From Candidatus Roizmanbacteria bacterium (GTDB taxonomy: Bacteria; Patescibacteriota; Microgenomatia; UBA1406; GWC2-37-13): a stretch of 64,000 nucleotides of DNA. The notes beneath the pieces are model-generated. The model was given only the letters and a program-made list of their open reading frames with translations. It searched no databases and was not told the origin of the DNA. Both the position numbers and the translations under genes were made by a program. This document shows, piece after piece, positions 27,691 to 39,394 of this stretch; position 1 is the stretch's first letter, and every line of letters begins with the position of its first letter. The stretch is from positions 124,001 to 188,000 of the forward strand of contig JAAZNM010000001.1 of the NCBI GenBank assembly GCA_012798265.1, in the 5' to 3' direction.

Positions 27691-29025
27691 TCAATCTCTC
27701 CCCGCAAGGAAAAACGTTGTGTTGTTGGTCTTGTCATCCTGCAAGTCTTGGTCGATTATTTCCAAACCATAAATCTCCGCCAAACGCTTCGGTCCCAGAA
27801 TCGCCGTTGTGGACGGTATTTTGTTTTTGGACAAGGCCCAGGCGGCTTTAGCCGTATCGATCAGATCGCCTTTGCCGCTGACCAGATTCTTTTTAGAATA
27901 CCTTATTGATAGATTATGGCGACATTGCCGGAAAACCTGAGGATGGGCCATGATAGCATCTATCTCCGACAAACCAACCCCTATCTTTTTCATCAAATAA
28001 TGCCTTATGGGAATGGCAAATTCGTCGATAATTTTGAATCGATAGCGGGCCATTGCGTAGGCAGACTCTTCAACCACACCGCCGACGGCGTTTTGGATTG
28101 CAAAAAGCCCGTAGTCAATACTGCCTTCATGCAGGCTCTTTAACACTTTTTCCGTCGTATATAAATATTTTATCTTAAATTTTTTAATGTTTTTTTTACC
28201 CGTATAAAATAGTACGGCTTCTTCATTGAAACTGCCCAATCCTCCCTGAATGCCATAAATGACCTTTTTTGGGTTGGCTTTTTTAGGAATCAAACGATCA
28301 TAAAGCTTGTCATATGCCTTACCAAGTCTTACTCTCATTGGTCCGGTGTAACGATTGTAATTCTGTAAGTTGGTAAATAACTGCCAGGTGTCGTTGCATG
28401 TCTGACTTTCGACTTCATGGAGTTTTTTGGTGCCGTACGTATCTATTTCGGTTGGTTTAAACCCAAACTCAGCCAATAGACGACCGATAAAATGAGTCAA
28501 TCCTTGGGAATTGGCTGCCAGCCTATCGTGTTCTTCGGGAGAAATTTCAATTATACTCAAACCCTTGTCGCTAAAATATTTCTTCCAAAAAGCATAATTA
28601 TTGCCGTCGCTTAAGAATTTATCCATGACCAACGGAAGATTGGAAAAACCAGACTGACTGCTGTCCGGACCGAACATCGGATGGGTGAGTATTGCCTGCG
28701 CTTCAGTTCCTTTTAGGTATTTCCTAAATATTTTGGCCGGATGTTCTTTGACTGACAAGACATCGACAAGCAGATGTTTTTTGAAATACCGACGGTGGCT
28801 ATTAATCACTGATTTAAAGACGGCAATCGGTACGCAGTAAAATATTACCTCGCTTCGATAAATATCGGCGATCTTTTCGGCAATTACGGTTTTTCCGTCA
28901 ACCTTAATTTTTTCAAAAACCTGGGGATGACGATTGTAAAGAGTTATCTGAAAATCATCCTTAAGCAATCGGTACAAAGTCTGGCCGAAACGGCCGAAAC
29001 CGACAATACTGACTTTTTTTTTCAT
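27691..29025 (-). CDS. Fused prephenate dehydrogenase (TyrA) and prephenate dehydratase (PheA)
   Basis: The 444-residue protein carries both branch enzymes after prephenate. Residues 1-255 are TyrA-like: Rossmann start KVSIVGFGRFGQTLYRLL, then LTHPMFGPDSSQ. Residues about 262-444 are a prephenate dehydratase: IYGIQGGLGSFNEEAV, GLFAIQNAVGGVVEES, MAHPQVFRQCRHNL and the terminal NNTTFFLAGRD, which corresponds to the TRF-type catalytic motif. No ACT domain follows, so feedback by Phe binding at the usual site is missing. Chorismate mutase is separate, two genes upstream. It is the last gene of the aromatic operon. Confidence 0.9.
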   Translation of the reverse strand: MKKKVSIVGFGRFGQTLYRLLKDDFQITLYNRHPQVFEKIKVDGKTVIAEKIADIYRSEVIFYCVPIAVFKSVINSHRRYFKKHLLVDVLSVKEHPAKIFRKYLKGTEAQAILTHPMFGPDSSQSGFSNLPLVMDKFLSDGNNYAFWKKYFSDKGLSIIEISPEEHDRLAANSQGLTHFIGRLLAEFGFKPTEIDTYGTKKLHEVESQTCNDTWQLFTNLQNYNRYTGPMRVRLGKAYDKLYDRLIPKKANPKKVIYGIQGGLGSFNEEAVLFYTGKKNIKKFKIKYLYTTEKVLKSLHEGSIDYGLFAIQNAVGGVVEESAYAMARYRFKIIDEFAIPIRHYLMKKIGVGLSEIDAIMAHPQVFRQCRHNLSIRYSKKNLVSGKGDLIDTAKAAWALSKNKIPSTTAILGPKRLAEIYGLEIIDQDLQDDKTNNTTFFLAGRD

Positions 29026-29027
29026 AT

Positions 29028-30170
29028 TTATAGATAAGAACTTATATCATCAATATTAGCGCAAATACTTGCCCGAATAAAACGATTGCCGTTTTTCCCA
29101 AAAACTGTTCCCGGAGTCAACAGAACTTGTTTAGACTTAAGGAGTTCTTCGCTGAACTGCTCCGAGTTTTTATAGCGACCGGGAATTTTTGCCCAGAGGT
29201 AAAGCCCGGCTTTCGGCAAATTAAAGCTTAAACCGATTTTTTTTAAGGATAGTGCCAAAATTTGCCGTCTCTCATAATAACTTTTGATCATCCGCTTGTG
29301 CCATGATCTGTCAAAGTTGTTCAAAGCATAAGCGCCTAGCTTAAGCAACGGCTTGCTCATGCCAGAATCAAGTTGCGACTTGACTTTGGATATGGCCGCT
29401 ATCACCTGGTGGTTACCGACTATCCAACCCATCCGATAACCGGCAAAGGAAAAAGTCTTGGAAAACGACCCCGTCTCAACCGCCACTTCTTTGGCTCCGT
29501 TTATCTGCAAGATACTGGGCGCTTTATAACCCTCAAAGGTGATCTCCGAATAAGCGTTGTCATAGACTATCCAAAACTGGTGTTTTTTCGCCAAACCCAC
29601 CAAAGACTCCAGTTTTGACAGACTGGTTATCTGCCCGGTCGGATTGGATGGGAAATTTACCCAAACAAGACGGGTATCTGCGGTTATTTTATTTTTTAAC
29701 TCGTTCAAGTCCGGTTCAAAACCGTTCTTTTCGGTCAGATTGTAATAAACCAATTTCGCCCCTAACATAGCCACCGGTCCTGAAAAAGCCGGATAACCCG
29801 GGTCGGGAACCAGAACCTCGCTCCCGGAATCAAGCAGAGCCAACGGCAGATGACCGATCCCGTCCTTGCTACCCAGCAGGGGATAGAGTTCATCACTTTC
29901 GACGGCAACGCCGAATCGGACTTTGTACCAATTTTGCAAAGCTTCGGCAAACTCTAAACTAGTCCCGTAAACACCATACATATGGGCATCGGGCTCGATT
30001 AAATACTCTTTCAGCTTGTCGATATATCTTTGGCTGGGTGGAAAATCTGGTGAGCCAACTCCCAAGTTCAGGACCTTGCGTCCGGATTTTTGCTCAGCCA
30101 GACTTATCTGTTTGGCAAGCCTGGCAAAAGCGTACTCGGAAAACAGATTCAATCTTTGAGAAACTTTCAT
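29028..30170 (-). CDS. Class I/II aminotransferase, probably aromatic
   Basis: A PLP enzyme of 380 residues with NFPSNPTGQITS (about 170), VYDNAYSEITFEG (about 205) and the Schiff-base Lys in GSFSKTFSFAGYRMGW (about 237). Sequence style is that of the fold-type I group containing LL-diaminopimelate and aspartate aminotransferases. Position between chorismate mutase and the TyrA-PheA fusion argues that it transaminates phenylpyruvate and hydroxyphenylpyruvate to Phe and Tyr. It is two bases from the next gene. Confidence 0.88.
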   Translation of the reverse strand: MKVSQRLNLFSEYAFARLAKQISLAEQKSGRKVLNLGVGSPDFPPSQRYIDKLKEYLIEPDAHMYGVYGTSLEFAEALQNWYKVRFGVAVESDELYPLLGSKDGIGHLPLALLDSGSEVLVPDPGYPAFSGPVAMLGAKLVYYNLTEKNGFEPDLNELKNKITADTRLVWVNFPSNPTGQITSLSKLESLVGLAKKHQFWIVYDNAYSEITFEGYKAPSILQINGAKEVAVETGSFSKTFSFAGYRMGWIVGNHQVIAAISKVKSQLDSGMSKPLLKLGAYALNNFDRSWHKRMIKSYYERRQILALSLKKIGLSFNLPKAGLYLWAKIPGRYKNSEQFSEELLKSKQVLLTPGTVFGKNGNRFIRASICANIDDISSYL

Positions 30171-30176
30171 AACGGT

Positions 30177-30443
30177 TTAAGCTTCGTTTTCAATTTTTAA
30201 CGCTTGATCGTGGATCAGGTTAAAGATATCGATAACAAAATTGTCCTCCAGGCTAAAAAGCTTTCCCTGCCTGACCCTTGAATCAATAACTTCCTGCCAC
30301 CTTTTTTGGTCAAACGGTCTCAGTTGATGTTTTTTTTTGCATAAGCCGATTTTTTTTACGACAACGAATCTTTTTGCCAACATCCCGATAATCTTTCCGT
30401 CAATTTCATCTATTTGTTTCCGCAAATCACCTAGTGAATCCAT
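30177..30443 (-). CDS. aroQ: Chorismate mutase, AroQ class
   Basis: The 88-residue all-helical enzyme turns chorismate into prephenate. LRKQIDEIDGKIIGMLAKR holds the first two catalytic Arg positions, followed by KKIGLCKKK with the active Lys and the DQKRWQEVIDSR segment. It is a free-standing monofunctional form. It lies six bases before the aminotransferase gene. Confidence 0.92.
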   Translation of the reverse strand: MDSLGDLRKQIDEIDGKIIGMLAKRFVVVKKIGLCKKKHQLRPFDQKRWQEVIDSRVRQGKLFSLEDNFVIDIFNLIHDQALKIENEA

Positions 30444-30456
30444 ATTACAAAGTAAT

Positions 30457-31542
30457 TTATAAATTTTGGGCTTTATGCCTTAAATAGTGGTCGATCACAA
30501 CTAAAGACGCCATCGCCTCAACGACCGGCACCGCTCTCGGCAAGACGCAAGGATCATGCCTGCCTGATGCCGCCAAAATTATTTTTTGTTTTTTTACGTT
30601 TAGGGTTGTTTGCTCTTTGCTTATCGTTGAAACCGGCTTAAAAGCCACTCGAAAAACAATCGGCTCACCGTTGCTTATCCCGCCCTGTATCCCTCCGGAA
30701 TTATTGGTAACCGTTCTGACTTTGCCGTCTCTGTCAAGATAAAACAAATCGTTGTGTCGGCTGCCTTTTAAAGTTGTTCCGTAAAAACCGGATCCGAGTT
30801 CAAAACCTTTGACTGCATTTATGCTTAACATCGCCTTTCCCAGATCGGCTGACAGTTTGTCAAAAACCGGTTCGCCTAAACCGGGAGGCACATTTCTTAT
30901 AACCCCCCTGATAACCCCTCCGACCGAATCACCGGCATTTTTTGCTTTTTCGATTAACTTGATCATTTTTCCGGCCGTTTTTTCTTCGGGACAACGAACA
31001 ATACTGCCTTCGATTTTTTTATAAGTCAGTTTGCTGTCGTCAACAACGGCCTTTACGGTGCCAACCGACTCCACATAGCTTAATATATCTATATTCAACT
31101 TTTCTTTCAGGTATTTTTTTGCAATCGCGCCTGAAGCCACTCTCGACAAAGTCTCCCGCGCCGAAGAACGGCCGCCACCCATCCAATCACGACGTCCATA
31201 CTTGGCCTCATAAGTATAGTCGGCATGAGACGGCCGATAAACATCTTTAAGATGATCGTAGTTTTCCGGACGGGCGTCTTTATTTTTTGCCAAAAGCATA
31301 ATCGGCGTTCCGGTCGTCCGACCCTCAAAAACTCCGGACAGAATCTTGATTTTGTCTTCTTCTTTTCGAGACGAAGTTATCTGACTCTGTCCCGGTCGGC
31401 GACGATCAAGCTCGACCTGAATATCTTCTTCCGAAAGCAAAAGACCAGGCGGACAGCCGTCGACCACGCAACCGACTCCGCCTCCGTGAGACTCGCCAAA
31501 AGTCGTCACTCTAAAAAGCGATCCAAACGTATTTCCTGCCAT
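30457..31542 (-). CDS. aroC: Chorismate synthase
   Basis: Flavin-dependent conversion of EPSP to chorismate. The 361-residue protein opens with [20 protein letters not shown] and has [39 protein letters not shown] (about 105) and [16 protein letters not shown] (about 280), all family hallmarks. Length is normal. It follows aroD by four bases. Confidence 0.97.
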
Positions 31543-31546
31543 ATGA

Positions 31547-32230
31547 TTATCGATTAAGTAATTTGTAAATTTTTTTCAGCTCTGAAAATTCCATCTGTCC
31601 CGGTGCGCTAAACCGACCCTTGTAACCGGCAAATGTCAGATAGGTTCCGAACAAAGGGCCGACCACCCTGGTTATAAGACCTTTCTCCCCCATACCGATG
31701 ATAATTTTATCTTTAATCCTCTTATCGACCATAAGCTGTATCAAACCAATAATATCCGCGTATCGGTTTACCTTCGTGGCTATCTTAATAATACTCGGAT
31801 CAAACTTAATCATTTTCTCAATTATTTTGTCCAAGGATCTTTTGTCCGGCGTTTTTTCAAAGTCGTGATATGAAACTATGAGCTTGTTTTTTCCAAGAAA
31901 CACGGATTTTTGATTTTCTAAAGTTTTAAGTTCTATATCAACGTATTCAAAACCCAAAATTTGGGCGTTTTGCAAAATCGTTACCCTCGTTTTTTCGTCT
32001 TTCGACCATTGACCGCCTTCGTCCCGGGACCGGCAAGTAAAAATAGATCTTCTAACTGTTTTTGTCCCGATTGTAAACAAATCTTTTTTTTTCAAATCCT
32101 CAATGCTATCTACACGCAACTCCACCCAATCGGCGACCGCTTGGATCTTTTTTAGATTGTCTAAAAACTCGTTTAAGTTTTTTCCCGTAACCGGCACGCA
32201 TATCCTTATTTTTGATTTTATGTTTTTCAT
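31547..32230 (-). CDS. aroD: 3-dehydroquinate dehydratase, type I
   Basis: The 227-residue class I enzyme forms a Schiff base with dehydroquinate. The catalytic His lies in [12 protein letters not shown] (about 121) and the Lys in [13 protein letters not shown] (about 147). [12 protein letters not shown] near residue 35 is the substrate-binding strand. It overlaps aroE by four bases. Confidence 0.94.
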
Positions 32231-33063
32231 AGTTTCACTCCCAAATTTTTCAGTAACACCTTTCTCATTACGTCAACCGGCGCCGGCTTACCTGTATAAA
32301 GCTCAAATTGCGCCGTACCCTGATGCAATAGCATCTCCGTTCCATGGATAACCGTTGCCCCTTTTTCCTTGGCCTTTTTCAGTAGTTTGGTTTCGTAAGG
32401 GATATAGACGGCATCAAAGACTATATGTCGGTTCGTAATCAACTGCGACGATATGGGCGATGCTTCGGTATTCGGTGCCATACCAACGGCGGTCGCATTG
32501 ACGATGATATCGTTATCGGATACCGCCGCTTCATCTTTCAGATCTCCGAAACCGCAATTAAAATCATTGGCGAGTTTAGCGGCGTTCCCAACGGTCCGGT
32601 TGAAAATCGTGACTTTGCTACCCTTGGCCAAAAGTCCGTAAACAACGGCCCGCGATGCTCCTCCGGCTCCCAAGACTGCCGCTTTTTTACCCTTAAGCGC
32701 CGTCACCTTTTCCAAGGGTTTGACCACCCCTATCCAGTCGGTATTGTATCCTTTCAAAATCCCTTTATCGTTTACAATTGAGTTGACGGCGCCGATTTTT
32801 GAGGCCGTTTTATCTATCTTATCCAGATACCTCATTACCTTAACTTTATGAGGAATCGTGCAGGTTAGCCCTCTTAGACTCATTGCCCTCATCGCACAAA
32901 CGACCGCTTTGATATCTTTTAAGTCAACTCGGGCTCCCAAATAAATAAATTTATCGTCAATATTCAAAGCTTCATAACCGGCGTTGTGCATGAGCGGCGA
33001 TAACGAATGTTCAACCGGATCGCCGATTATCAAACAGATTTTATTTTTCGCCGAGATTCTCAT
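32227..33063 (-). CDS. aroE: Shikimate dehydrogenase
   Basis: NADP-dependent reduction of dehydroshikimate. LIIGDPVEHSLSPLMHNAGY (substrate site), the catalytic Lys in TIPHKVKVMRYLD, GYNTDWIGVVK and the dinucleotide motif GAGGASRAVVYGL are present. I start at 33063 (278 residues), which overlaps aroK by 23 bases; an in-frame ATG at 33087 would add eight residues. Confidence 0.95.
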   Translation of the reverse strand: MRISAKNKICLIIGDPVEHSLSPLMHNAGYEALNIDDKFIYLGARVDLKDIKAVVCAMRAMSLRGLTCTIPHKVKVMRYLDKIDKTASKIGAVNSIVNDKGILKGYNTDWIGVVKPLEKVTALKGKKAAVLGAGGASRAVVYGLLAKGSKVTIFNRTVGNAAKLANDFNCGFGDLKDEAAVSDNDIIVNATAVGMAPNTEASPISSQLITNRHIVFDAVYIPYETKLLKKAKEKGATVIHGTEMLLHQGTAQFELYTGKPAPVDVMRKVLLKNLGVKL

Positions 33064-33553
33064 ATTTTTTAAGTAAATTGTTAACAATCATGTCGATGTT
33101 TTTGTCATCGGTGTTTATACTGAAATCAGCGTAAGCCTTGTATAAAGACTGACGCATCTCAAAGAGTTTTTTCGCCATACTTTTATTTTTGAATAAGGGG
33201 CGGATACAATCTCCTTTTAACCGACTCTTTATAACTCGAAACGATGTCTTCAAATAAAAAACCTTACCTTTTGTCTTCAAATAATCCAGATTAATTCTGT
33301 TGACGACCACTCCGCCGCCGGTTGAGACTATGGCCTTATCCATCCTTCGCCCGGTATCTTTGGCGACGGCGATCTCCAACTCCCTAAAAGTTATTTCTCC
33401 GTCTTTTTCAAATATCTCGCCCACGCTTCTTCTCCCTGATTTTTTTAAAATCAGCTCATCCATCTCGATCGCCGGCCAAGACAGCTTTTCGGAAAGCTGT
33501 TTTGCCACCGAGCTTTTTCCCGACCCCATAAAACCGATCAATATAATATTCAT
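33041..33553 (-). CDS. aroK: Shikimate kinase
   Basis: A 170-residue P-loop kinase: LIGFMGSGKSSVAKQLSEKL at the start, the shikimate-binding IEMDELILKKSGRR, and STGGGVVVNR. The LID Arg is in RLKGDCIRPLF. Bacterial type, normal size. It overlaps aroA by four bases and aroE by 23. Confidence 0.96.
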   Translation of the reverse strand: MNIILIGFMGSGKSSVAKQLSEKLSWPAIEMDELILKKSGRRSVGEIFEKDGEITFRELEIAVAKDTGRRMDKAIVSTGGGVVVNRINLDYLKTKGKVFYLKTSFRVIKSRLKGDCIRPLFKNKSMAKKLFEMRQSLYKAYADFSINTDDKNIDMIVNNLLKKYENLGEK

Positions 33554-34842
33554 AATAAAACCGGTTTAACTCCTAAATGGCTTAACCTCTGCCAAAAATC
33601 AGGAAACGACTTTCCAACTACGTCCGGATCTTCTATCTTCATTCCCTCTATTCTGCTCCCGGCGACCGCAAAAGCCATCGCCATCCGGTGGTCACCATAA
33701 GTATTGATCAGACAACTGCTCGGACAGCCGCCTTCTATAATGATTGAATCATTGGTCGTTTTGCTTTTTATTCCCATCTTTATAAGTTCGTTTTTTATTG
33801 CTTGTAACCTATCCGTTTCTTTTATCTTCAAGGTCGCCAATCCTGTAATCTTGGTTTTTCCTTTGGCAAAAGCCGCTACCACAGCCAGCGTCTGAGCCGT
33901 ATCCGGCATCAGACTCATATCCACCTCTATCCCTTTAAGTTTTGCCGTACCCTCAACCTCAATCCAACGCTCCGGGATGTTTTTCTTTATCCGACAACCC
34001 ATTCTTTTTAGAACATCGGCAAACCCGATATCGCCTTGAACGGAAAGGGGATTAATATTTTTGACTTTTATGCGACTTCGGGTAAGAGCCGCTACCGCCC
34101 AAAAGTACGAAGCACCGGAACTATCGGCTTCTACCTCATAACGGACAGGGGAATAGTATTGGTTTTTTTCGATCAAGTACTCTCGGTAATGATTGTTTTT
34201 TACCCTAACTCCGAAATCTTTTAATCCTCCGATTGTCATATCTATATAGGACCGGGAGATTGACCTACCCAAAACCTTAATCTTCAGTTTTTCTTTTAAA
34301 ACCGGCCCGATCATCAGCAAAGCGGTAAAGTACTGGCTACTGATATCTCCCTTTACGCAAACAGTCCCTCCTTTGATATTTTTCCCATGGACAACTACCG
34401 GCGGACAGCCGGTTTGCCCCAGATAAGATATCTTTGCCCCGAGTTTGATCAAAGCGTCGACCAACTCCCTGATCGGTCGGTTACGCATTCGCTCCGAGCC
34501 GTCAAGGACAATCCGACCCGGGACAAGACAGGCGACCGCCGTCAAAAAACGCATGGCGGTGCCGGCGTGATTTAAGTCAAGAACCAAGTCCTTTTTTTTG
34601 AAATAACCGCCATCGCCAATAACCTCTGCCTGATCTTTCATACGCCGAATCCTTATTCCCAGTTTTTTCAGGCAGTTGATCATTGTGATACTATCGTTAC
34701 TCTCCGATATTCCGGAAATAAGACTTTTACCATGAGCCAGTGAAGCCATGACTAAAGCCCGGTTGGTATAACTTTTTGAACCGGGGATAACTACGCTTTG
34801 TGTAACCGGTTTTGATAAAGGCCTCAACTCAATTATTTTCAT
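33550..34842 (-). CDS. aroA: EPSP synthase
   Basis: Joins shikimate-3-phosphate and PEP. PGSKSYTNRALVMASLAHG near the start and TYGDHRMAMAFAVAG near the end are classic. The PEP loop reads LNHAGTAMRFLTA where E. coli has LGNAGTAMRPL, so the Gly that interacts with glyphosate is replaced; insensitivity is possible but untested. The start at 34842 (430 residues) overlaps aroB by 14 bases; an upstream ATG at 34953 adds 37 residues without family similarity, within aroB. Confidence 0.95.
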   Translation of the reverse strand: MKIIELRPLSKPVTQSVVIPGSKSYTNRALVMASLAHGKSLISGISESNDSITMINCLKKLGIRIRRMKDQAEVIGDGGYFKKKDLVLDLNHAGTAMRFLTAVACLVPGRIVLDGSERMRNRPIRELVDALIKLGAKISYLGQTGCPPVVVHGKNIKGGTVCVKGDISSQYFTALLMIGPVLKEKLKIKVLGRSISRSYIDMTIGGLKDFGVRVKNNHYREYLIEKNQYYSPVRYEVEADSSGASYFWAVAALTRSRIKVKNINPLSVQGDIGFADVLKRMGCRIKKNIPERWIEVEGTAKLKGIEVDMSLMPDTAQTLAVVAAFAKGKTKITGLATLKIKETDRLQAIKNELIKMGIKSKTTNDSIIIEGGCPSSCLINTYGDHRMAMAFAVAGSRIEGMKIEDPDVVGKSFPDFWQRLSHLGVKPVLL

Positions 34843-35911
34843 AAGCGATTTTGACCATTTTATTAACTGATAATATTTCTTTATTGCACTCAACCTGACC
34901 GATCGCTGTCGGCAAACTCCACAAGACTCTTCCGGACTGATTTTTTTTGTCAACCAGTATTTTTTTAATGATTTTTTTTACCGGGATATGAGGCGTCGTT
35001 ATCGGCAGTCCGGCATTTTTTATCGCATCTTTTATCCGCAGATAGTCTTTTTCCTTCAATAACCCCGACAGACAAGCCAGTTTGCTTTCGATGACCATCC
35101 CGATACCGACCGCCTCTCCATGAAGTAGGGGTCTGTCGGTCGCTTGACTTAACGACTCGATCGCATGACCTACCGTATGACCGAAGTTCAATATCTTTCG
35201 CTTCCCCAGCATCTCTTTTTCATCCTTTTCCATAATGGCCGTTTTTATCAAACAGGATTTTTTTACGATCTCAATCAACTCTTTGCTGGAAAAATCAACT
35301 GGTTTTTTGCCGACGACCGACTCGAAATATTTTTTGTCGGCGACTATGCCGTGTTTAATGACCTCGGCCATACCGGAAATCAGCTCTCTTTCCGGAAGAG
35401 TTGACAAAAAGACGACATCGGTTAATACGGCTTTCGGTTGATTGAAAATACCTATATTGTTTTTTATCCCAAAAAAATTAAGTCCTGTTTTTCCGCCGAC
35501 ACCGGCATCCACCTGAGACAGCAAGGTTGTCGGAATATTTACGAAATCTATTCCTCTCATGTAGGTTCCGGCACAGAACCCGCCAAGGTCACAGACAACC
35601 CCACCGCCAAGATTGACGACAACCGACCGTCGATCAAGTTTGGACTGGACCATTTTTTTCCAGATCGTACGAACCGTATCGATATTTTTTTCCGCTTCGC
35701 CGTTTTTAATGACTGCGACAACAGCGTTTTTACCGACGGCCCTTGTGATTTTTTTTAGCCAAAAACCAGCCACGACGTTGTCGGTCAAAACCATAACCTG
35801 AGAATAACCATTGAGATTAATTAAACCGACTATATTCCCCAACAAATTCTTGCCAATATAAATTGGGTAGCTTAAACATTGTCTATCTAATTTGATCAGT
35901 ATTTTTTCCAT
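34829..35911 (-). CDS. aroB: 3-dehydroquinate synthase
   Basis: NAD- and metal-dependent cyclisation of DAHP. NLGGGVVCDLGGFCAGTYMR (about 100), NIPTTLLSQVDAGVGGKTGL (about 128) and LNFGHTVGHAIESL (about 242, metal-binding His) are intact. The 360-residue length is standard. It follows the DAHP synthase gene by six bases. Confidence 0.97.
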   Translation of the reverse strand: MEKILIKLDRQCLSYPIYIGKNLLGNIVGLINLNGYSQVMVLTDNVVAGFWLKKITRAVGKNAVVAVIKNGEAEKNIDTVRTIWKKMVQSKLDRRSVVVNLGGGVVCDLGGFCAGTYMRGIDFVNIPTTLLSQVDAGVGGKTGLNFFGIKNNIGIFNQPKAVLTDVVFLSTLPERELISGMAEVIKHGIVADKKYFESVVGKKPVDFSSKELIEIVKKSCLIKTAIMEKDEKEMLGKRKILNFGHTVGHAIESLSQATDRPLLHGEAVGIGMVIESKLACLSGLLKEKDYLRIKDAIKNAGLPITTPHIPVKKIIKKILVDKKNQSGRVLWSLPTAIGQVECNKEILSVNKMVKIAYENN

Positions 35912-35917
35912 ATGAGT

Positions 35918-36856
35918 TCAGATCTCCGGAGACACAAGATCCCGTATCTCTGATAACCGACAACACAGTTCGGCCAACTCTTTTACAGATATGTGTTGTT
36001 CCGTATCTGTCTTTGAACGGCCGGATTCGATCAATATTCCGTCGTACAAATAGGTATCGTCGTCTATCTTGACTCTCATCGCCTCAATTACCGCCCCCAC
36101 TATGGCACCCCGCAACTTCGGACCAAAAGTATGGCTCGGATCAAAAAATAATTTGCATTTCGTCGCCTGTTTGACTCGGCGGGCAATATGGTGAACCGGT
36201 AAACTCCGGTAATCTCCTTTATTGGCCACATCTACTCCCCGATGAATGAAGACCAGGTTTCCGTCAAAACCGGGTTCAATAAGACCGGTATATTTGGCAA
36301 GACCCATCCAGGTTTTTTCCATGGAAGTCTGACTGACCGAATCATCTCCCAACCATTTTCCGTTTTTTAAGCCAATTAACCATTGGTTGCGCTTTGCGTA
36401 AATACCCATTTTCAAAACCGGCCAGCCCAGCTGATTGACCGCCGGATTCCAGATCATGAGTTTTCCTTTAGGAATTAACCTTTCGAAAAGGGGTAGTTGA
36501 ACCAAAGGGCTCATTATTTCAGTCGCCACCAACATACCGGTTGCCCTTATGACTTTATCGGCCATCTTTATGCTGGGGAGCTGCTTCATACCCAATACTG
36601 ACTTTCCTGAGAGCAAAAGATCGAGATTTTTCATAAAAACCGGGAAGTCTATCCCCATATTTTTTCCTTCCCTGTTTAAGGCGGTCCTTGATTTCAGACC
36701 GACGATCCGGGTACCATAAACCGCCTTTTGCCTCCGTCCGAAACGATTGGTTATCTTTATCTCCGAAATATTGCCGATATCGTCAATATTGTCTTTATCA
36801 ACGGAACAAGGTCCGGCGATTATAATAAGTTTTTTATTTAAAACGTTTTTACCCAT
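35918..36856 (-). CDS. aroF: DAHP synthase, divergent
   Basis: Commits PEP and erythrose-4-phosphate to the shikimate pathway. KLIIIAGPCSVDKDN holds the metal-binding Cys, and DPSHTFGPKLRGAI and DTEQHISVKELAEL match the DAHP/KDO8P synthase fold. The phosphate-binding loop reads GLKSRTALNREGKNMG in place of the usual KPRTSPY or KPRTTVGW, and the central region is also unusual. No regulatory ACT or chorismate-mutase domain is attached. The start at 36856 leaves four bases after the kinase gene; an earlier ATG at 36913 overlaps it. Confidence 0.82.
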   Translation of the reverse strand: MGKNVLNKKLIIIAGPCSVDKDNIDDIGNISEIKITNRFGRRQKAVYGTRIVGLKSRTALNREGKNMGIDFPVFMKNLDLLLSGKSVLGMKQLPSIKMADKVIRATGMLVATEIMSPLVQLPLFERLIPKGKLMIWNPAVNQLGWPVLKMGIYAKRNQWLIGLKNGKWLGDDSVSQTSMEKTWMGLAKYTGLIEPGFDGNLVFIHRGVDVANKGDYRSLPVHHIARRVKQATKCKLFFDPSHTFGPKLRGAIVGAVIEAMRVKIDDDTYLYDGILIESGRSKTDTEQHISVKELAELCCRLSEIRDLVSPEI

Positions 36857-36860
36857 AGAT

Positions 36861-37775
36861 CTACAAAAAATTTTCAATTGATAAAGGTTGTTTCTGTTGA
36901 GCCGTCTTTTCAAACTTTTCTATCTCTTTTTTTGTCGGAATCGCCGATCCGTTGCCGATCTTGGTACACTGAAGTCCGGCGACCAAGTTGGCATATCGCA
37001 CCGATCTATCAAGCGACCAGTTTTTTAAAACCCCATATCCAAAAGCGGCCCTGAAAACATCACCGGCCCCAAGGACATCGACTGCGGCGATTTTATAAGC
37101 CGGAATGATTTTTATTTTTCCGTTCTGGCAGACAAGGCTGCCGAGCGGACCGGCGGTAATAATTATTGGTTTTCTGAATTTTTTATTCAGATATCTTAGC
37201 TTTTTCCCCAGATCGTCTTTTGGACAGATTTTTATCAAACTCTCTATCGGTAAAATTACAAACTCGACTTGGTGTAACATCTTCATCACTTTTTTTGACA
37301 CTTCGACCGAAGGATCGAAGATTATTTTTGAAGACGGCCTTTTTTTTCTGATAATTTTTTTAAAAATCAGCGGCTCATGCCTATCCAACACGATTAGATC
37401 AGCCTCTTGGATAATTTTGTCCGGAATATCCTTTATCGGATCCCGGGTGCTTTTGTCTTTGATTATCGTTCGTGAACCGTTATCGCCGTTGACCAAAACC
37501 ATATGGGTTTTTGTCTGAGACTGAAAACAAGGAACAAGGTCAATATTTTCTTTCATCAGTTTTTTCGCAATTTCCTTTCCCGACAGGTCTTTTCCGAGTG
37601 TCGTAATTAAAGTACATTGTCCTCCCAGCCTCGATAACAGAATCAAAGCCGGGCTGACAAAACCACCTAAAGAATACTCCGTCTTGACAACGTCTGTTTT
37701 TATCCCTTCGGACGGATAAGACTGCAATAGACAGATTCTGTCCAAAACCGTTTCTCCAACACCTAATATTTTCAT
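36861..37775 (-). CDS. PfkB-family carbohydrate kinase, first gene of the aromatic operon
   Basis: The 304-residue protein has the ribokinase/PfkB fold: MKILGVGETVLDRI at the N-terminus, a Gly-Gly substrate segment (SLGGFVSPALILLSRLGG), and the signature VDVLGAGDVFRAAFGYG with the catalytic Asp near residue 243. Substrate is unknown. Its position behind the attenuator and before DAHP synthase suggests a task in supplying or tuning precursor (for example sugar phosphate) for aromatic synthesis, but that is inference. An ATG 15 bases upstream at 37790 is an alternative start. Confidence 0.83.
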   Translation of the reverse strand: MKILGVGETVLDRICLLQSYPSEGIKTDVVKTEYSLGGFVSPALILLSRLGGQCTLITTLGKDLSGKEIAKKLMKENIDLVPCFQSQTKTHMVLVNGDNGSRTIIKDKSTRDPIKDIPDKIIQEADLIVLDRHEPLIFKKIIRKKRPSSKIIFDPSVEVSKKVMKMLHQVEFVILPIESLIKICPKDDLGKKLRYLNKKFRKPIIITAGPLGSLVCQNGKIKIIPAYKIAAVDVLGAGDVFRAAFGYGVLKNWSLDRSVRYANLVAGLQCTKIGNGSAIPTKKEIEKFEKTAQQKQPLSIENFL

Positions 37776-37795
37776 ATTATTTATTGCCATATACT

Positions 37796-37819
37796 AAAAA
37801 ACCCCGCGCTTGGCGGGGT
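37796..37819 (-). terminator. Attenuator terminator (segments 3:4)
   Basis: On the minus strand ACCCCGC (37819-37813), loop CAAGC, GCGGGGT (37807-37801): a perfect 7-bp stem, followed by six T ending at 37796. It lies directly before the first structural gene of the aromatic operon, so it must be bypassed for expression. Confidence 0.85.
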
Positions 37820-37842
37820 ATTGGGATTTTATAATTTAGCTA

Positions 37843-37917
37843 CTAAAAAATCTCCCCGCGCTTAGTGGGGTAAAAGTAAAAATAAAATTTTTTAGTGACT
37901 AAACCAAAATTACTCAT
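37843..37917 (-). CDS. Phe/Tyr leader peptide of the aromatic operon
   Basis: A 24-codon ORF starting with ATG 9 nt after the -10 box and ending with TAG. Residues 11-16 are FYFYFY; two further Phe are at 4 and 24, so 8 of 24 codons are Phe or Tyr. The run sits just upstream of hairpin segment 1, and codons 17-22 are encoded by segments 1 and 2. There is no Trp codon. The layout matches leader peptides such as PheL and TrpL: a ribosome stalled at Phe/Tyr codons would cover segment 1, freeing segment 2 to pair with 3. A ribosome that reaches the TAG would have its rear edge near 37861 and cover segment 2, allowing the 3:4 terminator. The ORF is too short for standard gene callers. Confidence 0.82.
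   Translation of the reverse strand: MSNFGLVTKKFYFYFYPTKRGEIF
37845..37871 (-). terminator. First attenuator hairpin (segments 1:2)
   Basis: ACCCCAC (37871-37865) can pair with GCGGGG (37859-37854) with one A-C mismatch, followed by T6 (37850-37845). It lies inside the leader ORF. Segment 2 can alternatively pair perfectly with segment 3 (CCCCGC, 37818-37813), which would prevent the downstream terminator. Confidence 0.65.
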
Positions 37918-37926
37918 CGCGTAACA

Positions 37927-37955
37927 AGTATATCAGGCAATAGTTTGAACGTCAA
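37927..37955 (-). promoter_or_regulatory. Promoter of the aromatic operon
   Basis: TTGACG (37955-37950), exactly 17 nt, TATACT (37932-37927). Predicted transcription start is about 37920, two or three bases before the leader-peptide ATG. Confidence 0.75.
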
Positions 37956-37987
37956 GAAGAAAGTAACTGTTGGTCGACAACTCAGGT

Positions 37988-37993
37988 TATAAT
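37988..37993 (+). promoter_or_regulatory. -10 box, leaderless start of GH39-like gene
   Basis: TATAAT ends 6 nt before the ATG at 38000. The -35 region is weak. It is divergent from the aromatic promoter. Confidence 0.55.
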
Positions 37994-37999
37994 AATATT

Positions 38000-39394
38000 A
38001 TGAGGAAAGTTTCCCTTGTTTTTTTTATCCGGATATTGGTTGTCGTCATCCTGACCGTCGTCTTATTTACGGGTTTCCGATATTTCTCAAAAGCCGCTCC
38101 CGTCAAAGCCGATATCGTCATCGATACCCGCCGCATTACCGGTATTATCCCGGCCAACTGGAAAGCTCTTGCCCAAGGAGGTGAAGAATCGGGCGTCAGG
38201 ATGATGAGCAACGTCATACCTCAAATAGCCGGCTTGTTTCCCCGTTACATCAGGATCGATCACGTCTACGATTTTTATGATGTCGTAAAAAGGGAGGACG
38301 GCCGACTTGTCTTTGACTGGAGAAGATTGGACGAGACCGTCTGCGATATCTATCATACCGGCGCTAAACCGTTTCTGTCTTTGGGATATATGCCCGAATC
38401 CCTATCCGGGGATAAATCATTGGTGTCAAAACCGCTAAACTGGGACGAATGGTCGCTTGCCGTACAAAAAACCATCGAAAGATACAGCGGCCGGCAAACA
38501 CGGATATGCGACCAGGTCTTTGGAGCACTTCTTGAAGACGTATATTATGAAGTATGGAACGAACCTGACCTTGAGACCTTCGGGAAGTGGAGCCTTTATC
38601 CCGGACAAAAAAGCTATCTGGATCTTTACCGTTATTCGGTGATCGGCGCCCAAAACGCCAAAGATGTAAATCATTTTTTAATCGGCGGTCCGGCAACTAC
38701 CGCCGCCTACAAAAATTGGTTTAGGCTTTTTGCAGACTTTATCATAGATAACAACTTGCGGATCGATTTTCTATCTTGGCATCATTATTCGAAAAAACCC
38801 GATGATTTTTACCAGGATATAGAAAATATCGATGAGTGGTTGTCGGAAGACAAATACGTCCGTTTCCGCCATCTGCAAAAAATTATCAGCGAATGGGGCT
38901 ATGATTCCCAGCCCAATCCGATTGCCGATACCAATCTTGGAGGCGCTTATACGGTGGCCTCCATCAGGAATTTGATTGAACAACAAGTTGAGATGGGTTT
39001 CAGTTTTGAAGTCAAGGACGGCCTTTCTCCCAGCTGGGGCATTCTTACCAGGGAAGGTAATAAAAAACCCAGATACTTTGCTTTGCAGATGCTCAACATA
39101 CTTGATCGGGCACGTTTGGACGTGAGCGGCGAAGGTACCTATATCAAAGCTATATCCAGCACCAGTCCCGGCCGGATTGCTTTGATTATGGTAAACTACG
39201 ACCCTGACGGAAAAAACTACGAACTTGTCCCCGTTACTTTCAAAAATATCGTTCCCGGGACGTACACGATAACCGAAACCAGTCTTGACGGAAAAAAAGT
39301 TGAAACCAAACTCATGATAGAAGATTCCGTTCTAAAAAAATCGATTTTGATGATTCCCAACTCGGTCGTAACCGTCGAGCTGGTTAAAGAATAA
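38000..39394 (+). CDS. Secreted or membrane-anchored GH39-like glycoside hydrolase
   Basis: The 464-residue protein has an N-terminal hydrophobic segment (about 8-27) and then a TIM-barrel matching glycoside hydrolase family 39 (beta-xylosidase/iduronidase-like). The acid/base Glu is in YYEVWNEPDLETF (about 183), and the nucleophile Glu in KIISEWGYDSQP (about 297). RYIRIDHVYDFYDV near 80 and FLSWHHYSKKP near 257 also fit. A beta-sandwich C-terminal part follows (GRIALIMVNYDPDGKNYELV). It may trim polysaccharides at the cell surface or of a host. I use the ATG at 38000 next to the -10 box, not the one at 37970. Confidence 0.85.
   Translation: MRKVSLVFFIRILVVVILTVVLFTGFRYFSKAAPVKADIVIDTRRITGIIPANWKALAQGGEESGVRMMSNVIPQIAGLFPRYIRIDHVYDFYDVVKREDGRLVFDWRRLDETVCDIYHTGAKPFLSLGYMPESLSGDKSLVSKPLNWDEWSLAVQKTIERYSGRQTRICDQVFGALLEDVYYEVWNEPDLETFGKWSLYPGQKSYLDLYRYSVIGAQNAKDVNHFLIGGPATTAAYKNWFRLFADFIIDNNLRIDFLSWHHYSKKPDDFYQDIENIDEWLSEDKYVRFRHLQKIISEWGYDSQPNPIADTNLGGAYTVASIRNLIEQQVEMGFSFEVKDGLSPSWGILTREGNKKPRYFALQMLNILDRARLDVSGEGTYIKAISSTSPGRIALIMVNYDPDGKNYELVPVTFKNIVPGTYTITETSLDGKKVETKLMIEDSVLKKSILMIPNSVVTVELVKE

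Follow-up and report, generated by a model that had tools for sequence, protein, structure and literature searches.

What is a short open reading frame (ORF) with alternating phenylalanine and tyrosine codons doing between a promoter and the first gene of an aromatic amino acid operon in Candidatus Roizmanbacteria, an ultra-small and uncultured bacterium? Our analysis of the window (the whole 64,000-nt stretch of DNA studied here) indicated that this leader is very probably a ribosome-mediated transcription attenuator sensing charged tRNA-Phe and tRNA-Tyr. The original prediction had proposed a Phe/Tyr attenuator, and this interpretation was supported by the anatomy of the leader, by the codon run and spacing conserved in relatives, and by the complementarity of segments 2:3 and 3:4.

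The leader and its operon

The elements of the leader, all on the reverse strand, were as follows.

37927-37955 (-): strong promoter, with -35 TTGACG (37955-37950), a 17-nt spacer, -10 TATACT (37932-37927) and TG before the -10
37843-37917 (-): leader peptide ORF MSNFGLVTKKFYFYFYPTKRGEIF, 24 aa, with its ATG at 37917, 9 nt past the -10 box, and stop codon TAG at 37845-37843
37870-37887 (-): regulatory codons TTT TAT TTT TAC TTT TAC (FYFYFY, codons 11-16)
37832-37906 (-): long pause hairpin around the regulatory codons in the minimum-energy fold, 37906-37885 pairing with 37853-37832
37865-37871 (-): segment 1, ACCCCAC, the 5′ partner of segment 2
37854-37861 (-): segment 2, GCGCGGGG, within the 3′ end of the ORF, partner of segment 1 or 3
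37813-37819 (-): segment 3, ACCCCGC, which pairs with segment 2 or forms the 5′ arm of the terminator
37796-37807 (-): segment 4, GCGGGGT (37807-37801), and T-run, T6 at 37801-37796 (first T paired), the 3′ arm of the intrinsic terminator

The promoter, the ORF, and the coordinates and pairings of segments 1 to 4 had all been given correctly, base for base, in the original prediction. Three features of the attenuator class were present at the locus, namely an ORF rich in codons for the product, a terminator before the first gene, and a mutually exclusive 2:3 pairing. Segments 2 and 3 form six GC pairs (GCGGGG:CCCCGC), a duplex of -13.0 kcal/mol (z -3.1) that was matched by none of 200 shuffles, whereas segments 3 and 4 form 7 bp around a 5-nt loop, followed by T6, and this terminator alone reached -13.3 kcal/mol (z -3.2). 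The fold of the 122-nt leader amounted to -35.6 kcal/mol, compared with -22.1 kcal/mol in shuffles (z -3.8). Energies and promoter scores throughout the analysis came from simple home-made scans. Pairing between segments 1 and 2 (four GC pairs, one mismatch and one further pair) was present as predicted, but it constitutes merely the tip of a longer hairpin that had been overlooked and whose 5′ arm overlaps the first Phe codon in the fold. Because this arm reaches that codon, a ribosome on the codon run would have to open the long hairpin.

The leader lies directly 5′ of an operon of 11 genes on the same strand.

36861-37790 (-): PfkB-family kinase, the first structural gene (PF00294, 9e-33), for which homologues suggest a start at ATG 37775
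35918-36856 (-): DAHP synthase of a divergent type, with weak Pfam and NCBIfam matches
34829-35911 (-): aroB, 3-dehydroquinate synthase
33550-34842 (-): aroA, EPSP synthase
33041-33553 (-): aroK, shikimate kinase
32227-33063 (-): aroE, shikimate dehydrogenase
31547-32230 (-): aroD, type I dehydroquinate dehydratase
30457-31542 (-): aroC, chorismate synthase
30177-30443 (-): chorismate mutase
29028-30170 (-): PLP aminotransferase
27691-29025 (-): fused prephenate dehydrogenase/prephenate dehydratase, the Tyr and Phe branch (PF02153, PF00800)

The predicted product of this operon is phenylalanine and tyrosine. That the downstream genes serve Phe and Tyr and not Trp, as had been claimed, agreed with the presence of the fused PDH_N/PDT gene and with the lack of a TrpB above the family cut-off of 392 bits in this genome, whose sole TrpB-like match scored far below it, at 161.8 bits. 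The upstream neighbor is a divergent GH39-like gene at 37970-39394 (+).

The 954-kb genome (99% complete) was scanned on both strands in 20-kb tiles (988 kb, 313 strand-specific terminators) for short ATG-started ORFs that carry codon runs and are closely followed by a terminator of -9 kcal/mol or stronger. The window leader was the only match with at least six F/Y in eight residues. The leader DNA matched a second place in this genome (L002), near ribosomal-protein and nusG-like genes, which was dismissed as chance similarity.

Some records of Bacteroidota, Rickettsiales and Elusimicrobia share the divergent DAHP synthase (36856-35918). The PfkB-family kinase also directly follows a Phe/Tyr leader in distant Patescibacteria (L092, L117, L124, L126, L130 and L160), and a transaldolase/FSA-like gene takes its place after the leader in L033 and L241; both genes perhaps aid the supply of erythrose-4-phosphate.

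Phe/Tyr leaders in related genomes

Relatives were collected by AroB and DAHP synthase searches at the level of the family, the class and named genomes, followed by locus scans in which leaders were selected by codon run and terminator alone; pairing and promoter played no part. These scans revealed 48 leader ORFs with F/Y(/W) runs and terminators at ~45 loci in several Patescibacteria lineages, nearly all directly 5′ of the aromatic operon (in the named exception, L159, the leader follows the DAHP gene). Most of the aromatic operons checked in Microgenomatia had such leaders, which also occurred in other Patescibacteria; the records comprised Roizmanbacteria, Levyibacteriota, Woesebacteria, Dojkabacteria, Jacksonbacteria, bacterium HR35 and Peregrinibacteria, together with one Elusimicrobia label and one delta-proteobacterium label. 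No such leader was seen at some Patescibacteria loci with the same DAHP synthase (L118, L120, L121, L135, L151 and L097). Control loci with this DAHP synthase in Bacteroidota and Rickettsiales, two of the latter having <250 nt of upstream sequence, yielded no FY leader with terminator even under relaxed thresholds, and a weak Trp-rich candidate was present at a single control locus (L157).

The leader peptides were alike in little but the run, which itself varied in length and order (FYFYFY, FYFYFYF, FFFFYP, YFWFYF and FGFYFF), and the stop codon preceded the terminator by a median of 23 nt (range, 9-50 nt) in relatives. Across these diverging sequences, the Phe/Tyr run, the stop-terminator spacing and the 2:3 and 3:4 complementarity stayed. 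Relatives that keep the hairpins and lose the ORF or its Phe/Tyr codons would have spoken against the original prediction; the reverse was seen in the 48 leaders. Trp codons occurred in the leaders of 9 of 12 genomes with a true trpB, compared with 5 of 20 genomes without one (Fisher p 0.01, phylogeny ignored). In one genome (G016, locus L239), tandem FY leaders stand before a putative non-homologous aromatic operon of archaeal type, read from protein sequences as ADTH synthase, DHQ synthase II and aspartokinase, followed by aroA, aroK, aroE and aroD. The leader therefore appears to track the product and not the gene family.

Tandem Phe/Tyr attenuators before a single operon were observed at L028, L038, L141 and L239. 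The use of an FYFYF pattern as a census over 83 genomes was abandoned, the reversed control having matched at least as often; the search nonetheless pointed to L071/L240. At L240:8950-9021 (G019, in which no AroB was found), a cluster follows the FY leader MKNLNPNFYFYFTREGGGEGCDC, and judging from the encoded proteins its members include a PLP enzyme and a tyrosyl-tRNA synthetase-like gene.

A structured RNA of ~110 nt was also observed just past the terminator of first attenuators, and in the Roizmanbacteria genome itself, at the following positions.

L028:9305-9194 (-); L029:629-739; L239:854-1011; L241:6735-6841; L141 about 2729-2828; own genome G000:C7:6834-6950: ~110-nt structured RNA

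In four sequences, 14 of its 38 pairs change on both sides (0 of 500 shuffles). The RNA had no Rfam match, and a covariance model detected it in 45 of the 80 genomes in the order, in as many as 12 copies per genome and frequently next to tRNA genes, terminators or translation genes. It is possibly a mobile or processing element.

Alternative pairing across the leaders

Compared with dinucleotide shuffles, the 2:3 duplex was stronger than expected (mean z -3.4), with p < 0.05 in 40 of 47 leaders, and in 43 of the 47 the start of segment 2 lay 8-15 nt past the end of the codon run. When partners were permuted among leaders, own partners gave -16.6 kcal/mol for 2:3 compared with -11.6 kcal/mol (SD, 0.41), and -10.7 kcal/mol for 1:2 compared with -9.0 kcal/mol (SD, 0.30), values reached in none of 20,000 permutations in either case. 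Own partners are thus stronger than swapped ones for both pairings, which indicates co-variation. The parts of the leader, their spacing, their conservation and this co-variation are established by the sequences themselves. The four-segment logic of the original prediction was kept in relatives for 2:3 and 3:4, but 1:2 alone was weak at individual loci against shuffles (mean z -0.96; 10 of 47), and it appears better seen as part of the long hairpin around the codon run.

Promoter position and a probable leaderless start

A distance of 5-15 nt between the end of the best promoter's -10 and the ATG was seen in 43 of 48 leaders (~90%), compared with 24% of shuffles, and a strong promoter occupied that position in 75% of leaders but only 1.9% of shuffles. 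No excess of Shine-Dalgarno sequences was found before the ATGs of the 48 leaders. In tandem pairs, the downstream leader was without a promoter directly before its ATG, as expected. Transcription usually starts 6-8 nt after the -10; therefore, given the position of the -10, the messages would begin at or within a few nucleotides of the ATG. From the -10 position and the lack of a Shine-Dalgarno sequence, we infer that a leaderless or almost leaderless start is probable for these ORFs throughout the clade. The 9-nt distance between the -10 and the ATG in the window had been noted correctly in the original prediction, although its leaderless implication had not been drawn out.

Proposed mechanism and alternative readings

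Transcription start, leader translation, stalling and termination, as we infer them from these parts, would proceed as follows. RNA polymerase would start at or within a few nucleotides of the leader ATG, and with a start at the ATG a ribosome could load on the 5′ end once it emerges. When Phe- or Tyr-tRNA is scarce, the ribosome would stall on codons 11-16 and open the long 1:2 hairpin, and the freed segment 2 would pair with segment 3, allowing the operon to be transcribed. When both are ample, the ribosome would reach the TAG (37845-37843) with its body over segment 2, 3:4 would form, and transcription would end in the T-run. An untranslated leader would form 1:2 and 3:4, and transcription would end as well.

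Control could instead be translational, with the ribosome site of the first gene hidden by the T-run and the 3:4 hairpin and freed by 2:3. The ATG at 37790 does start 6 nt after the T-run with no other ribosome site visible, but a U-run right behind a 7-bp GC stem is a hallmark of terminators, and it is kept even where the gene starts up to ~250 nt downstream (L028, L029 and L042), which makes translational control very improbable. We consider it extremely unlikely that the locus holds a constitutive intrinsic terminator or promoter-proximal pause behind a small ORF that arose by chance and senses no amino acid. Intrinsic terminators are common, as the 313 strand-specific matches in the genome tiles illustrate, and F/Y codons come easily in AT-rich DNA; however, the genome's only FY run with a terminator this strong lies right in front of the Phe/Tyr operon, and the run, the spacing and the 2:3 pairing are conserved though the sequence is not. 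Furthermore, because the upstream gene is divergent, the terminator has only the leader to end, which leaves a constitutive terminator nothing to terminate. Aromatic motifs do recur among the peptides, as a TnaC-like arrest in which the nascent FYFYFY peptide within the exit tunnel responds to a free amino acid might produce, but no conservation was seen in the residues that flank the run, the runs differ in length and order, and W codons occur mainly where trpB is present, so that such arrest is scarcely credible. Riboswitch and plain-terminator readings of the leader were also rejected.

Leaders with codons for other amino acids

The layout recurred with other codons. At L176:18135-18085 (-) (G000:C5), the genome under study has a Met leader, MSKLIQTSMMMVMRAG (SMMMVM), before a gene for SAM hydroxide adenosyltransferase (SAM hydrolase; PF01887/PF20257), with the arms CAAACCTCC, CGGAGGTTTG, AAACCTCCG and GGAGGTTTT. 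A homologue with 42% identity in another genus (L242/L223, G054:C116) is likewise preceded by a Met leader, MKIDNSNITSKQMMMDNALRRGVIL (KQMMMDN). A Met-codon leader with antiterminator and terminator in two genera is a candidate methionine attenuator, and no description of a Met-codon attenuator was found in the literature searched. In two relatives, predicted leaderless leaders rich in Ile/Leu/Val, MKNLMSFVLIVLLINRA and MKTNISYILVLLITHV, with terminators, stand before ilvE-like genes (L037:15140-15193 (+) and L043:5204-5154 (-)), and a leader of the same kind, also with a terminator, in the genome under study (L205:10480-10412 (-)) precedes a gene without a Pfam match and then an M20-type peptidase.

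It is fairly probable, judging from these loci, that leaderless leader-peptide attenuators are a general means of amino acid sensing in Patescibacteria, with Phe/Tyr(/Trp) codons preceding aromatic operons that are not homologous to one another, Ile/Leu/Val codons preceding ilvE, and Met codons preceding the SAM hydrolase. If this is true, a message starting at the leader ATG would link ribosome and RNA polymerase from its first base onward, with neither a Shine-Dalgarno sequence nor a regulatory protein needed, an arrangement that suits reduced genomes. To our knowledge, how Patescibacteria regulate their genes has hardly been explored, and these loci offer dozens of switches that can be put to the test, the codon run giving a readable input to each and its output being readable as well. 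They suggest that a reduced lineage holds amino acid biosynthesis under feedback control via translation itself, and the codon runs could help to place unknown genes in amino acid pathways. If the 5′ ends are confirmed, the leaders would represent classical attenuation without a Shine-Dalgarno sequence or an upstream untranslated region in a deep bacterial branch.

Comparison with known systems

No Rfam family matched the leader over threshold. The best sub-threshold match was Phe_leader (RF01859), with 26.6 bits in the window and 37.1, 36.6, 34.0 and 31.2 bits in relatives (three of them at 34-37 bits), the curated gathering threshold being 55; the window leader lies outside the Phe_leader family as defined. 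T-box riboswitches respond to uncharged tRNA and are located upstream of amino acid genes; a T-box reading was rejected, as Rfam gave no T-box hit for the window and sensing here is predicted to be by leader codons. Among the open papers searched, none described an attenuator or a leader peptide from CPR/Patescibacteria. In Actinobacteria, candidate attenuators have been proposed for trp, ilvB and leuS (PMC1262725), which resemble the present leaders in placing leader peptides and terminators 5′ of amino acid genes outside Proteobacteria; they differ in belonging to an unrelated phylum, in including no Phe/Tyr leader in that study and in some cases lacking antiterminators. Ribosome-dependent attenuation by trpL of Sinorhizobium meliloti involves an RNA whose 5′ end coincides with the leader ORF's ATG and which is thus leaderless (PMC7298713). 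That system differs in its Trp codons, its trpE(G) operon and its alphaproteobacterial host, and the leaderless layout proposed here is deduced from the position of the -10 in dozens of loci. The pheL/pheM leaders of gamma-proteobacteria (RF01859) share a short ORF with a run of Phe (and some Tyr) codons, alternative hairpins and a terminator before Phe genes. Unlike them, the window leader has alternating Phe and Tyr codons and would control a whole shikimate-Phe-Tyr operon, and its promoter abuts the ATG, with no Shine-Dalgarno sequence, in another phylum. The proposed mechanism is the classical one of the pheL/pheM type; the predicted leaderless layout and the occurrence in Patescibacteria are what is new relative to the literature searched.
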